In this document: piece after piece, positions 5,032 through 22,218 of the stretch | Layout: each line of letters opens with the position of its first letter | Position numbering within the stretch: position 1 is the first letter of the stretch | NCBI GenBank assembly: GCA_022508285.1 | Contig: JAFLVN010000004.1 | Location: forward strand, 1-64,000 | Length of the DNA stretch: 64,000 nt | Direction of reading: 5' to 3' | DNA from: Clostridiales bacterium | GTDB taxonomy: Bacteria; Bacillota; Clostridia; Christensenellales; Borkfalkiaceae | The notes under the pieces: model-generated | Seen by the model: the letters and a program-made list of their open reading frames with translations, nothing else | What the model was told of the DNA's origin: nothing | The model's database searches: none | Position numbers and translations under genes: made by a program

Positions 5032-6964
5032 ACGTCCCGCTATGAAGGCGCCCCGCGGCACCTTTAAAAGATTAATAAAGTTACTTTTCCGTTTCTATCC
5101 CGTAATGATGCCGGTAACTTTGATACTCATAATTTTCAACGCCATAGTAAGCGCACTTCCCGCACTGTTTATGGGGCAGATTTACGGTGTGCTCGAAGCG
5201 GCAGAAGAAGCGAGAAAAGCAGGCGAGGTTGTTGCTTGGGCTGACTACGGCGGGCAGATAACCACCACAATGCTTACCCTTATCGGGCTCTACCTGCTTT
5301 CGCTTGCGGCGGGTGCGGTAGATAAACAGATGATGGCAATAATGACTCAGGGCTTTTTGAAAAAAATGCGCTGTCAAATGTTTGACGATATGCAGGATTT
5401 GCCCATTCGTTACTTCGATACGCATACACACGGCAATATAATGAGCTATTATACCAACGATATAGACGCACTCCGCCAAATGATTTCACAGTCTTTGCCC
5501 AATCTTCTGACTTCGGGCATAATGTGCATAACAGTCTTTATAATCATGCTGCTTTACAGCGTATGGCTGACGCTCATTATGTTCGGCGGAATAATACTGA
5601 TTCTGTTTGTCACCAAAATCGTCGGCGGTGGAGCGGGAAAATATTTCCTCGGTCAGCAGAGAGCCGTTGCGAGAACGGAAGGCTTTATCGAAGAGATGAT
5701 GAACGGACAGAAGGTCGTAAAGGTATTCTGTCACGAGGAACAGGCAAAGGCAGACTTCGACAAAGTCAACGAACAGCTTTTCGACCAGTCTAACCGTGCA
5801 AACCGCTATGCCAATATGCTTATGCCGATTTTGGGTAATATCGGTCACATATTATACGTAATACTTGCGCTTGTCGGCGGCATGTTTATAATTCAAGGCG
5901 TCTACAACGTAAGTCTTAATCCGGAATATATAGGAGCGCTTACAACTCTTGCCGGGATAACAATGCTGCTTGCTTTCCTGCAAGCTGCAAGGCAGTTTTC
6001 TAACAATATCAATCAGGTTTCCAATCAGGTCAACTCCGTCGTTATGGGACTTGCGGGTGCAGCCCGTCTGTTTGCACTCATCGATGAAAAGCCCGAAGAA
6101 GACGAAGGGTTCGTTACTCTCGTTAACGTAAAAGAAGAGAAAGGTCAGCTTGTGGAAAGCGGCGAGCGTACGGGAATCTGGGCTTGGAAATATCCCAACA
6201 AGGAAGACGGTTCGGTAACTTACGTTCGTCTTGCGGGCGATATAAGAATGTCCGAAGTCGACTTCGGCTACAATCCCGAAAAGATTGTACTGCACGATAT
6301 TTCGCTGTATGCAAAGCCCGGTCAAAAGGTTGCCTTTGTGGGAGCGACGGGCGCAGGTAAAACTACTATCACTAACCTTCTCACAAGATTTTACGACATT
6401 GCCGACGGCAAAATTTTGTATGACGGTATAAACGTAAATGAGATTAAAAAAGGTGAACTTCGCCGGGCGATAGGCATGGTATTGCAGGATACCAACCTGT
6501 TTACGGGCACGGTTATGGATAATATCCGCTACGGCAGGCTCGCTGCTTCCGACGAAGACTGTATTGCGGCGGCAAAACTTGCAGGCGCCGACGACTTTAT
6601 AACAAGACTTCCCGAGGGCTACAACACAATGCTCCGTCAGAACGGCGCAAACCTTTCTCAGGGTCAGCGACAGCTTTTATCCATTGCCCGTGCCGCCGTT
6701 GCAGACCCGCCCGTAATGATTTTGGACGAAGCGACCAGCTCTATCGATACACGCACCGAGGCAATAGTTCAAAGAGGTATGGATAAACTTATGGAGGGCA
6801 GAACGGTGTTTGTAATAGCGCACAGACTGTCCACCGTAAAGAATTCCAACGCCATAATGGTACTTGAAAACGGCAGAATAATAGAGCGAGGCAACCACGA
6901 ACAGCTCATCGCTCAACAAGGCAAGTACTATCAGTTATATACAGGTGCATTCGAATTAGAATAA
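5018..6964 (+). CDS. ABC exporter half-transporter, catalytic-site subunit
   Basis: A 648-residue partner of the preceding gene. It has a six-helix exporter membrane domain (about 20-345), a linker of about 60 residues, then an ATPase domain with Walker A GATGAGKT (442-449), Walker B ending in LDE (Glu571) and an H-loop His602 (AHRLST). Its signature is LSQGQ (546-550) instead of LSGGQ. The two subunits therefore complement each other: its own Walker motifs with the partner's VSGGQ form the active site, and the other site is degenerate. The start at 5018 is chosen over 5000 because GGGAGG at 5004-5009 sits 8 nt upstream. The substrate cannot be inferred. Confidence 0.9.
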   Translation: MPPIKRPAMKAPRGTFKRLIKLLFRFYPVMMPVTLILIIFNAIVSALPALFMGQIYGVLEAAEEARKAGEVVAWADYGGQITTTMLTLIGLYLLSLAAGAVDKQMMAIMTQGFLKKMRCQMFDDMQDLPIRYFDTHTHGNIMSYYTNDIDALRQMISQSLPNLLTSGIMCITVFIIMLLYSVWLTLIMFGGIILILFVTKIVGGGAGKYFLGQQRAVARTEGFIEEMMNGQKVVKVFCHEEQAKADFDKVNEQLFDQSNRANRYANMLMPILGNIGHILYVILALVGGMFIIQGVYNVSLNPEYIGALTTLAGITMLLAFLQAARQFSNNINQVSNQVNSVVMGLAGAARLFALIDEKPEEDEGFVTLVNVKEEKGQLVESGERTGIWAWKYPNKEDGSVTYVRLAGDIRMSEVDFGYNPEKIVLHDISLYAKPGQKVAFVGATGAGKTTITNLLTRFYDIADGKILYDGINVNEIKKGELRRAIGMVLQDTNLFTGTVMDNIRYGRLAASDEDCIAAAKLAGADDFITRLPEGYNTMLRQNGANLSQGQRQLLSIARAAVADPPVMILDEATSSIDTRTEAIVQRGMDKLMEGRTVFVIAHRLSTVKNSNAIMVLENGRIIERGNHEQLIAQQGKYYQLYTGAFELE

Positions 6965-19335: not shown

Positions 19336-19440
19336 ACCTGAACGCAAAGAGTAATCTGAGGGTAAAGGGCTGAATATTACGTGGTGTATTTATACTCCAG
19401 TATTTTGCCCTTCCCCCGAATTTTAGGAGGAAATTTTTTT
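19336..19440 (+). promoter_or_regulatory. Structured 5' leader of the TM1266-ABC importer unit
   Basis: The leader can fold into a long imperfect hairpin: AAGGGC (about 19369-19374) pairs with GCCCTT (about 19406-19411), enclosing TAC/GTA, TGG/CCA and GTAT/ATAC pairings around a TT loop. It is followed by a C-run and the strong SD AGGAGG. It does not match a riboswitch class that I know; a TPP-type aptamer was considered and not supported. Confidence 0.45.
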
Positions 19441-19686
19441 ATGTCCGACCGTATAGCCGTAATCAGCATAATTGTGGAAGATAGAGAACAGAGTTCGAAA
19501 ATCAACGGTATTTTATCTGAGTTCGGTGATTTCGTTATAGGAAGAATGGGAATACCCTATAAACAGAAGTCGGTATTCATAATCAGCGTTGCGGTAGACG
19601 CCCCCACCGAAGTTATCAACACGATTACGGGTAAAATCGGGCAGCTTTCAGGCGTTTCCGCAAAGACCCTCATGTCAAAACTGTAA
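19441..19686 (+). CDS. TM1266-family (iron-only hydrogenase system) putative regulator
   Basis: An 81-residue protein of the TM1266 family, with a ferredoxin-like/ACT-like fold as in the NikR C-terminal domain. Motifs include VISIIVEDREQSSKINGIL, FGDFVIGRMGIPY and VDAPTEVINTITGKIGQLSGV. Family members often lie beside [FeFe]-hydrogenase maturation genes and are annotated as their regulators, although no DNA-binding domain is evident. Here it precedes an ABC importer instead. The start is chosen at 19441 because AGGAGG lies just upstream; an in-frame start at 19381 would fall inside the structured leader. Confidence 0.85.
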   Translation: MSDRIAVISIIVEDREQSSKINGILSEFGDFVIGRMGIPYKQKSVFIISVAVDAPTEVINTITGKIGQLSGVSAKTLMSKL

Positions 19687-19733: not shown

Positions 19734-20780
19734 ATGAAAAAATTTTTTGTAACCCTCGTATGCGCCGTTCTTGCGGCGCTCACCGTCGTCGGCTTTACCG
19801 CCTGCAATGACGGTTCCGCCCCCGATAAGGTCAACCTTGTCGGAATGGGTACTGATGCGAGCGGAGTTGTTCCCCGCAACGACGTTGATTATTTTGTTGT
19901 ACCCGAACCCGCCGCAAGCGCAAAGATTAAGGCCACTGCAAGCTCGCCCAACGGTTTTAAAATGGTGGGAGACTTACAGCAGCTCTACGGCGAAGATAAC
20001 GGCTATCCTCAGGCAGTCGTTGTAGTTAAAAACAGCTTGTTTTCTTCGGGTAACGGATTAGGTCACTTTATGAATGCATTAACCAGTAATGCGTCCTGGT
20101 TGCAAGAAGATTCAACAGAGATATCCACAATAGTGGAAGCGGTAACGACTCATCTTCCTTCGGGCACGACGCCTATGTTCAGTGCGAATAACTTAACAAA
20201 ATCCGTTATCGCAAACTGTGGAATAAGGTTTACAAGGGCTTCCGACGACAAAACTGAAATAAAGTCTTTTTTAACTGATTTAAAAACAGTTCAGCCGTCA
20301 GTAAACGCTACGCCCGCAGACAGCTTCTTTTTTGACGGAGGTTTTGCGGGAGTTATAAACCCTTATGAGTCATTAGAAATTTATGCTCCCGACGGAGCGC
20401 CGGCGCTTGCGCTTGCCGGACTCATGGCGGGCGAGGTAGATACTGGTTATGTGGCTAATACAATTAACTATCATATTGTAAATGCATCAACTATTCAGAC
20501 GCACGTTACAGGCGCAAATCCCGATGCGGATATCTGTATTCTTCCTGTAAACCTTGCCGCAAATCTTCTCGGAAGCGGTGAAAAATACACTATGCTCGGC
20601 ACTGTAACACACGGCAATCTGTACATTATTTCAGCTAAAACTGGCAAGCAGATTACTGCTGACAACATCTCCGAACTCAAAGGCAAAACGGTTGGAGTGG
20701 TAAATCTTGCCGCCGTTCCCGGACTTACTTTCAAACTTATTTTAAATAAATACAAAATAGCCTATACTGAACTTTCCTAA
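19734..20780 (+). CDS. ABC importer substrate-binding lipoprotein, apparently circularly permuted
   Basis: A 348-residue lipoprotein (signal peptide with lipobox FTAC, Cys24) of the NMT1/THI5-like (nitrate, sulfonate, thiamine-precursor type) binding-protein superfamily. In known relatives the chain begins with the APDGAPALALA segment, passes THGNLYIIS and LKGKTVGVVNL..PGLTF, and then continues with DYFVVPEPAAS, YPQA and IRF..A to a C-terminal DSFF/FYY. Here the order is reversed: DYFVVPEPAA (52-61), YPQAVVVV (91-98), IRFTRA (164-169) and DSFFFDGGF (196-204) come first, then APDGAPALALA (218-228), THGNLYIIS (282-290) and PGLTFKLILNK near 320, ending TELS. All parts are present in one open frame with a correct signal peptide. 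The stop overlaps the permease start. Confidence 0.87.
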   Translation: MKKFFVTLVCAVLAALTVVGFTACNDGSAPDKVNLVGMGTDASGVVPRNDVDYFVVPEPAASAKIKATASSPNGFKMVGDLQQLYGEDNGYPQAVVVVKNSLFSSGNGLGHFMNALTSNASWLQEDSTEISTIVEAVTTHLPSGTTPMFSANNLTKSVIANCGIRFTRASDDKTEIKSFLTDLKTVQPSVNATPADSFFFDGGFAGVINPYESLEIYAPDGAPALALAGLMAGEVDTGYVANTINYHIVNASTIQTHVTGANPDADICILPVNLAANLLGSGEKYTMLGTVTHGNLYIISAKTGKQITADNISELKGKTVGVVNLAAVPGLTFKLILNKYKIAYTELS

Positions 20781-21562
20781 TGAAAAGATTTTTTACCGAA
20801 AGAAAACTTAATATTTTAATTTCGGTGCTTGCCGTAGTTGTGATGTGGATAGTATGGATTATCGCATACTATTCCGTAAAAAACGACTATCTAATACCGT
20901 CTTTTCAGGATACGTTTGTAAGTCTCGGGCGGGATTGCCTTGCGCGAGGTGCGTTTTGGACGGCATTCGGTAATACGTTTTTGCGCACGCTGCTGGCGTT
21001 TATAATTTCCTTTGTAATAGCTGCGGCTCTTGCCTGCCTTTGCGCACTCTCGAAAAAGGTGGCGGCGTTTGTTATGCCCTTTATGGTCTTTTTGCGCACG
21101 CTTCCAACGCTTGCGGTAGTACTTTTATTGCTTATATGGACGAATCCCCGCGTGGCACCCGTAATCGTTACCGTTTTGGTATTATTCCCTATGATTCACG
21201 CAAGGTTGTTTACGGCGATAGATGGCATAGACGGCGGCATAAGGCAGATGTTAAAGGTTTATAATATCCCCAAGAGTCAGGCTGTATTTAAAATTTATCT
21301 GCCGCTTATTACGCCGGACGTGCTTCCGCAGACGGGTGCGGACATCTCTCTCGGGTTAAAGATTATGATTTCCGCCGAAGTGCTTGCGAGTACGTTTAAA
21401 AGTTTAGGCGGAATGATGCAGGAAGCGAGGCTGTATCTTGAAATGCCGCGCCTTGCCGCACTAACCCTGCTTGCCGTGTTTGTAGGACTTTTAATTGATA
21501 TCGCATTCTCCCAACTTTCCAGGCTTACCTATAAATGGAGCAGAAAGGAGGGAGTCAGATGA
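20780..21562 (+). CDS. ABC importer permease (SsuC/ThiX-like)
   Basis: A 260-residue inner-membrane permease of the binding-protein-dependent type with about six helices. The conserved cytoplasmic EAA-type loop reads VYNIPKSQAVFKIYLPLITPDVLPQ (span about residues 162-186, quoted in part) and contacts the ATPase. It is translationally coupled to the binding-protein gene (TAATG) and to the ATPase gene (ATGA), which makes the three-part importer certain. Relatives move sulfonates, nitrate, taurine or thiamine pyrimidine precursors. The substrate here is not identifiable. Confidence 0.9.
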   Translation: MKRFFTERKLNILISVLAVVVMWIVWIIAYYSVKNDYLIPSFQDTFVSLGRDCLARGAFWTAFGNTFLRTLLAFIISFVIAAALACLCALSKKVAAFVMPFMVFLRTLPTLAVVLLLLIWTNPRVAPVIVTVLVLFPMIHARLFTAIDGIDGGIRQMLKVYNIPKSQAVFKIYLPLITPDVLPQTGADISLGLKIMISAEVLASTFKSLGGMMQEARLYLEMPRLAALTLLAVFVGLLIDIAFSQLSRLTYKWSRKEGVR

Positions 21563-22218
21563 TAGAAATAAAAAATCTTTCCAAAAGCTATCCTAACGTG
21601 CCGCTCTACGAAAATTTCAATCTGTCGCTTGAGGAGGGCAAAATTACCTGCCTTTTGGGTTCGAGCGGTTGCGGTAAAACCACCCTGTTAAACGCCATAG
21701 CCGGATTGACGAAGTGTGAAGGCGAGATTCCTAAACTTAAATGTTCATATATTTTTCAAACTCCGCAGCTTGTGCCCAATTTAACGGTATTTAGAAATCT
21801 TTTACTTGTTTGTCGCGATGAACAGAAAATATTTAGTATGCTAAAGCGTGTGGGGCTCGAAGACAAGGCAAAAAGCTACCCTGTAAATCTTTCGGGCGGA
21901 GAGGCGCAACGTGTGGCGATAGCCCGTGCTTTCCTTTATAAAAGCGATATATTACTGATGGACGAACCGCTTGCCTCTCTCGATTTAAAGCTGAAAAAGC
22001 AGATAATAGAACTGTTTTTTGAAATCTGGAAAGAGGACGGCAGAACGGTGCTTGCCGTTACCCACGACGTAGACGAAGCAGCGGCAATCGCTCAGCGCAT
22101 AATAGTGCTGTCCGCAGGTAAAATAGTTTCCGATTTTGTGCCCGAAACCGCCGTGCCCCGACCCTTATATATGGGTGGAGAACTGCGAGAAAAGCTTATC
22201 GGTTTATTGCTTAATTAA
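21559..22218 (+). CDS. ABC importer ATP-binding protein
   Basis: A 219-residue ATPase subunit. Walker A is GSSGCGKTT (near residue 36), the signature is LSGGEAQR (near 119), Walker B is LLMDEP (near 140), and the H-loop is VTHD. It lacks the C-terminal regulatory domain of larger importers. The start at 21559 is chosen over 21535 because AAAGGAGG lies just upstream and the ATG overlaps the permease stop (ATGA). It powers the importer encoded by the two preceding genes. Confidence 0.92.
   Translation: MIEIKNLSKSYPNVPLYENFNLSLEEGKITCLLGSSGCGKTTLLNAIAGLTKCEGEIPKLKCSYIFQTPQLVPNLTVFRNLLLVCRDEQKIFSMLKRVGLEDKAKSYPVNLSGGEAQRVAIARAFLYKSDILLMDEPLASLDLKLKKQIIELFFEIWKEDGRTVLAVTHDVDEAAAIAQRIIVLSAGKIVSDFVPETAVPRPLYMGGELREKLIGLLLN

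Follow-up and report, generated by a model that had tools for sequence, protein, structure and literature searches.

We analyzed a stretch of 64,000 nucleotides from a Clostridiales bacterium (positions 1 to 64,000 of contig JAFLVN010000004.1, assembly GCA_022508285.1), which is called the window in this report. The window possesses an ATP-binding cassette (ABC) importer operon, and the gene in question codes for its substrate-binding lipoprotein, in which the two halves of the chain stand in swapped order. As a preliminary description of the locus had stated, the gene is one uninterrupted open reading frame (ORF) with a signal peptide and a lipobox. The residues M1, K2, K3, A23 and C24 were each conserved at 90% or more (n = 12 sequences). 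The coupling to the permease, claimed in the same description, was also observed: the ATG of the permease gene overlaps the stop codon of the binding-protein gene by one base. The features are listed in Table 1.

Table 1. Features of the binding-protein gene and its operon in the window. CP1, CP2 and CP3 are permuted arrangements of the protein and CP0 is the ancestral one, as defined in the text.
Feature	Coordinates	Strand	Basis
Permuted (CP1 order) substrate-binding lipoprotein gene, 348 amino acids	19734..20780	+	Uninterrupted ORF; collinear matches in congeners
Signal peptide and lipobox, residues 1-24, anchor cysteine C24	19734..19805	+	Sequence; conservation
Half B, residues 32-203, ancestral C-terminal part, now first	19827..20342	+	Matches 3HN0 144-270 and second part of CP0 relatives
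Linker from old C terminus to old N terminus, residues 204-212	20343..20369	+	Length and sequence vary among CP1 relatives
Half A, residues 213-348, ancestral N-terminal part, now last	20370..20777	+	Matches 3HN0 7-92 and first part of CP0 relatives
Loop equivalent to the CP2 cut point, residues 66-74	19929..19955	+	Comparison with CP2 relatives
Segment equivalent to the CP3 cut point, residues 300-314	20631..20675	+	Comparison with CP3 relatives
ABC permease (BPD_transp_1), sole permease gene seen in the operon	20780..21562	+	Pfam PF00528, E 5e-12
ABC ATPase	21535..22218	+	Pfam PF00005, E 1e-29
TM1266-like putative regulator, common upstream neighbor	19381..19686	+	Pfam PF21699, E 2.5e-29

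Hereafter, A is the ancestral N-terminal part of the protein and B is the ancestral C-terminal part. The order A-B is called CP0 and the order of the window protein, B-A, is called CP1. Congeners with the CP0 order matched the window protein as two pieces that follow each other the other way round. Residues ~213-345 of the window protein came first in these congeners (47-62% identity) and residues ~24-204 came second (36-49% identity), with E-values down to 1e-45. With a profile of the CP0 relatives, positions 31-165 matched window 20367-20780 and positions 170-339 matched window 19818-20336. A collinear alignment with ancestral-order relatives, which had been named beforehand as a refutation of the swapped order, was looked for and not found. 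Thus, the swapped order of the conserved blocks noted in the preliminary description was reproduced.

The same permuted order was sought in related genomes. Among 93 genomes of the genus Candidatus Coproplasma (gut Clostridia), 37 (the window's included) possessed CP1 and 52 possessed CP0. In one further genome (G107) the pieces were split over two contigs, and no match was detected in the remaining three. The 37 CP1 matches formed one collinear stretch each; that of G096 was cut by a contig end, and that of G113 contained an in-frame TAG. The G113 copy (L054; ORF 5823-6518 and its continuation) is a CP1 copy broken in half A by this single TAG, and may be a pseudogene or reflect a sequencing error.

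The closest solved relative by sequence profile was PDB 3HN0 ("Nitrate transport protein"), which differs from the window protein by its ancestral A-B order. The CP0 profile was collinear with 3HN0. In contrast, positions 207-293 of the CP1 profile matched 3HN0 7-92 and positions 49-185 matched 3HN0 144-270. The whole-sequence E-value of 3HN0 was 8e-9 with the CP1 profile and 2e-9 with the CP0 profile, and the separate stretches were weak (i-E 0.003-0.03). AlphaFold models were obtained for the window protein (pLDDT 84.5, pTM 0.81) and for the CP0 relative L014 (pLDDT 88.6, pTM 0.85). The 24 secondary structure elements assigned by DSSP on these models matched after rotation: window E211-H339 corresponded to L014 E30-H152, and window E33-H184 to L014 E160-H311. 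The window model has one additional short C-terminal strand (344-347). The short linker that had been proposed to join the old termini was found at residues 204-212, and the block-mean pLDDT in this region was 73-93; a linker of nine residues is compatible with old termini that are near each other in space. These results support a natural, lipid-anchored circular permutant.

The elements were assigned to the lobes according to the type II binding-protein topology. By this assignment, the predicted new termini would lie inside the second lobe, in a loop that leads from a helix into a strand, and not at a lobe crossover as the preliminary description had placed them.

For the window protein itself, the assignment to the NMT1/THI5-like family was not borne out by Pfam. 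The window protein had no Pfam or NCBIfam match above the cut-off, and Pfam NMT1 did not match it even at E 10, nor did it match the rotated window sequence. Of two CP0 relatives tested against NMT1 (PF09084), one, L014, matched with 19.5 bits, just under the cut-off of 20.5; this was the sole NMT1 match when Pfam was run on the window protein, its rotated sequence and four relatives. A weak match to Cas_VVA1548 (E 0.04) was under the cut-off and was judged to be due to chance. NMT1/THI5-like proteins (PF09084, PF13379) belong to the same type of operon and L014 resembles them weakly, whereas the window protein matches them in neither order and is a distant, permuted relative.

To determine the arrangement of each protein, the mature sequence was doubled in tandem and matched to a window-order profile. 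Two further arrangements were detected. CP2 begins near profile position 44 and finishes with positions 4-44. Its circle is joined as in CP1 but is opened at a different loop, behind the helix that comes next to the EPAAS motif. CP3 runs from the strand LKGRVVYSIG, directly past the lobe crossover, to GSLYLIGRE. CP3 was found in four of the seven genomes examined of genus g86, and the remaining three possessed CP0. The 189 distinct genomes with fetched loci comprised 103 CP0, 63 CP1, 21 CP2, one CP3 and one cut by a contig end. As this census was built from chosen search hits and covers part of the listed genomes, the proportions are not frequencies. CP0 and CP1 were both present in six genera of three families (g1, g26, g36, g39, g75 and g78), and CP2 occurred beside CP0 in g28 and g36. 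A scan of genome contigs with a single protein gave no relative; an alignment-based scan gave 136, of which 80 loci were kept and are not included in the counts. In G326, two contigs (C23 and C29) had binding-protein matches of the same score and extent, which reflect either a recent duplication or a redundancy of the assembly.

Among 291 genomes of the class, seven near-full-length matches were obtained outside the order (G686, G722, G913, G817, G836, G741 and G932), and most other matches were too partial to show their order. All seven were collinear with CP0; therefore, CP0 was taken as the ancestral order. In all CP1 proteins whose cut could be aligned, it lay in almost the same loop. In six of the 21 CP1 proteins of family f1 outside g1 (L114, L117, L122, L123, L134 and L135), the N terminus could not be aligned by the profile and the exact cut is uncertain. 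This gene has repeatedly been cut and joined anew, which gave at least four chain orders, apparently without loss of function.

The preliminary description had envisaged a single permutation event. We constructed several trees. The main count was taken from a tree of 50 proteins, a hand-picked subset of CP0 and CP1 without CP2 or CP3. On this tree, 11 switches between the ancestral and the window order were counted, at least eight of which were forced by supported branches. A single change was found in none of 200 bootstrap trees, and forcing CP1 into one clade cost 631 log-likelihood units (p-AU 1.8e-6). A 146-protein tree in a common column order, from which the junction columns were omitted, gave nine changes for the three arrangements known at that stage; L147, L133, L040 and L054 were left out. 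A 181-protein tree across the order gave 17 changes over all arrangements, and at least 12 were forced when CP0 was set against the rest. This tree excluded the same four proteins and L152, L288, L090, L091 and L273. Since it was a quick tree with a simpler model, it did not replace the main count.

Trees of the separate halves, which lack L152, L090, L091, L092 and L031 in addition to the four proteins left out of the 146-protein tree, were weaker and agreed in kind. The CP1 changes numbered seven on B (at least four forced) and six on A (at least two forced). In both half trees, the CP1 proteins L127-L130 (g36) adjoined the CP0 proteins L145/L146 with a support of 99 on each half, and CP1 L131/L132 fell among the CP0 proteins of their genus g26. 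CP1 L113 grouped with CP0 L139 (81) or with L139/L144 (73). The half trees conflicted over L126. Because the counts carry no direction, some of the switches may be reversals. A single origin of the window order is rejected by the 50-protein tree, and the switches amount to many events.

The surroundings of the gene were largely conserved in all arrangements. Where the contig left room, the permease was downstream in 182 of 183 loci and the ATPase in 165 of 183. The TM1266-like gene was upstream in 149 of 186 and was absent beside most g39 copies. The Pfam type of this gene, PF21699, is a putative regulator of iron-only hydrogenase systems, and the large subunit of [FeFe]-hydrogenase is matched twice elsewhere in the window's genome; a functional link to the transporter may exist. 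No riboswitch that could hint at the ligand was detected in the 11 loci searched.

Genus g78, which belongs to another family, had CP1 in four genomes and CP0 in six. In its flanks, the CP1 locus L233 shared 75-84% identity with four CP0 genomes of g78. Compared with the CP0 locus L242, the DNA of L233 was 80% identical upstream through the signal peptide, 79% in A, 71% in B and 77% downstream. The g78 CP1 junction resembles the linker that follows the lipobox in CP0 (GEGSGTLELY in L233 and GGGSGTLELY in L240).

By a simple motif, a DSFYY-like tail terminates 79 of 96 CP0 proteins, and in CP1 it stands at the internal junction. In L242 (G642, CP0), this tail of half B lies directly after the lipobox instead of at the C terminus. 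In a second motif search, L242 was the only case among the 96 CP0 proteins with a placed N terminus; seven of 103 CP0 proteins were not placed or were misplaced, and a first motif search was too narrow and missed even L242. This scar fits best with a CP1-like ancestor that was permuted a second time, or with an independent permutation whose cut fell just before the tail. Either way, more than one permutation event occurred in g78.

As for the origin of the permutation, tandem duplication of the gene in place, in-frame fusion of the copies and subsequent loss of the outer parts by trimming is the most plausible route. The preliminary description had proposed the same route. This model is favored because the signal peptide is retained, the neighbors are kept and the g78 junction is like the CP0 post-lipobox linker. 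The case for a switch in place is less clear for L113/L139, L128/L146 and the f32 CP2 pairs, in which the permeases resemble each other less than the binding proteins do. No intermediate of the route (tandem copies, proteins of 1.5-fold length or remnants next to the gene) was found: self-tblastn of 150 loci gave no internal repeats, and its four weak matches (20-28 residues, E 0.01-0.04) were judged to be due to chance. Furthermore, a second binding-protein ORF over the set score was present in none of 190 loci (189 genomes); as these loci are short stretches, this search covers only copies near the gene.

We next consider the function. dN/dS was 0.07-0.23 in 14 close pairs (seven CP1, four CP0 and three CP2; dS exceeded 1 in three), and such low values indicate purifying selection and show that the permuted CP1 and CP2 genes are maintained as proteins. 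We conclude, with a probability of roughly 0.88, that the gene codes for a circularly permuted binding lipoprotein of an ABC importer, with a predicted two-lobed type II fold, that functions like its CP0 orthologues. Binding and transport would be retained: the protein would be lipidated at C24, close on the ligand between its lobes and hand it to the permease encoded by the adjoining gene. In CP0, the first strand of lobe 1 comes next to the anchor in the chain; the elements at this place in CP1, CP2 and CP3 are the equivalents of L014 E160, E198 and E132, respectively. Because these three elements lie between the two crossovers of the topology, they are assigned to lobe 2. The lipid anchor would thus be attached to the first lobe in CP0 and to the second lobe in the three permuted arrangements, and it may be relocated in three dimensions as well. 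Since one permease gene was seen in the window operon, two copies of its product probably make up the membrane part. Such a permease of two-fold symmetry could accept the receptor either way round, and this may be the reason why the switch is tolerated.

A relocated anchor might alter the seating on the membrane or the contact with the permease, and the switches might have been selected for this in some lineages. All three permuted arrangements set second-lobe elements, as assigned from the general topology, beside the anchor. On the other hand, both orders occur within the same genera, a reversal may have taken place as well (L242), and dN/dS is equally low in CP0, CP1 and CP2, which fits neutral change too. 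A similar idea was proposed for the lipoprotein TpMglB-2 (PMC4990184). We regard selection as a possible but doubtful cause. The broader proposal, a standing hotspot at which the gene has permuted reversibly and in place among at least four orders, a dozen or more times, under selection for the shift of the anchor between lobes, is likewise put forward only tentatively.

A rival reading is a single ancient permutation that became patchy in its distribution through horizontal transfer and gene conversion, without being repeated. Exchange of this kind does occur in Coproplasma. In five operon mosaics, L089 (G017), L084 (G006), L080 (G104), L073 (G101) and L081 (G103), the identity to the window was 64-72% for the ATPase and 73-81% for the regulator but 40-43% for the binding protein and 51-55% for the permease. 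This suggests, from sequence comparison, that a segment of the binding-protein and permease genes has been exchanged between species. However, the gene tree, which is immune to whole-gene transfer, needs the 11 switches, and both halves place L127-L130, L131/L132 and L113 with CP0 proteins. In addition, CP2 and CP3 are cut elsewhere, so that at least three different cuts are needed regardless. One ancient permutation with later spread is therefore improbable.

It is more improbable still that the halves were formerly separate genes that were fused in either order, although the near-constant cut loop of CP1 looks as if a half were a unit. In none of the 190 loci was there a pair of binding-protein ORFs that might represent the halves as separate genes, and the sole split frame, that of L054, is due to the TAG inside half A. 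The cuts of CP2 and CP3 lie elsewhere, and the seven near-full-length matches outside the order all possess the ancestral order.

Finally, the preliminary description had named misassembly as a possibility to be excluded, and two gene copies might have been joined in the wrong order by assembly or binning. As a control, the 93 genomes were searched for another binding protein that the window's genome encodes. All 79 full-length copies were collinear; the other genomes gave five partial matches, one weak cross-match and eight without a match. As the full-length control copies were all collinear, neither the assemblies nor the search method generate swapped orders in general. Although the majority of the named records are labeled as metagenome assemblies (MAG), an artefact is next to impossible, since a junction of the same type recurs in the 36 other CP1 Coproplasma genomes at 45-68% identity to the window, the records stem from several assembly projects (the isolate names indicate rabbit, chicken, deer and other sources), the neighboring genes are in place, and six genera have both the ancestral and the window order.

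The preliminary description knew of no natural case in this family. A naturally permuted, lipid-anchored ABC binding protein has been described, though of the type I fold: TpMglB-2 (Tp0684; "Type Ic / Cluster Bc"; PMC4990184). According to the same paper, it binds glucose and was proposed as one permuted subclass, its topology also occurs in Gram-positive gut bacteria, and its authors considered anchoring as a possible driver of the permutation. It resembles the window protein in its natural permutation, lipid anchor and ABC importer, and its ligand binding is retained. The family of the window protein differs by its predicted type II fold, by three permuted arrangements and by one orthologous gene that switches within genera. 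None of the 50 matches listed in our structure search was a chain titled MglB, which excludes nothing. A literature search on permutation, mostly of open-access papers, turned up neither a case in the type II fold nor an orthologous gene that had been permuted recurrently.

The permutations of DNA methyltransferases and of swaposin are old splits between families or classes. Here, in contrast, close relatives carry orthologues of a single operon gene in different orders. The permuted methyltransferases and the saposin/swaposin pair are natural permutations credited to duplication and trimming, and these cases are summarized together with the duplication and fission-fusion models in PMC3320104.

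Circular permutation is usually regarded as a rare and deep event, whereas here it is repeated in one gene among close relatives. The family thereby in effect supplies natural experiments in replicate, with pairs of relatives that differ in order, permuted proteins cut at three points, and one scar. With these, the route at the DNA level, the survival of intermediates and the cut points that selection accepts become testable, as does the importance of chain order for folding, lipid anchoring and docking. Furthermore, domain models built on one order can miss permuted proteins such as that of the window, which leaves a gap in annotation.
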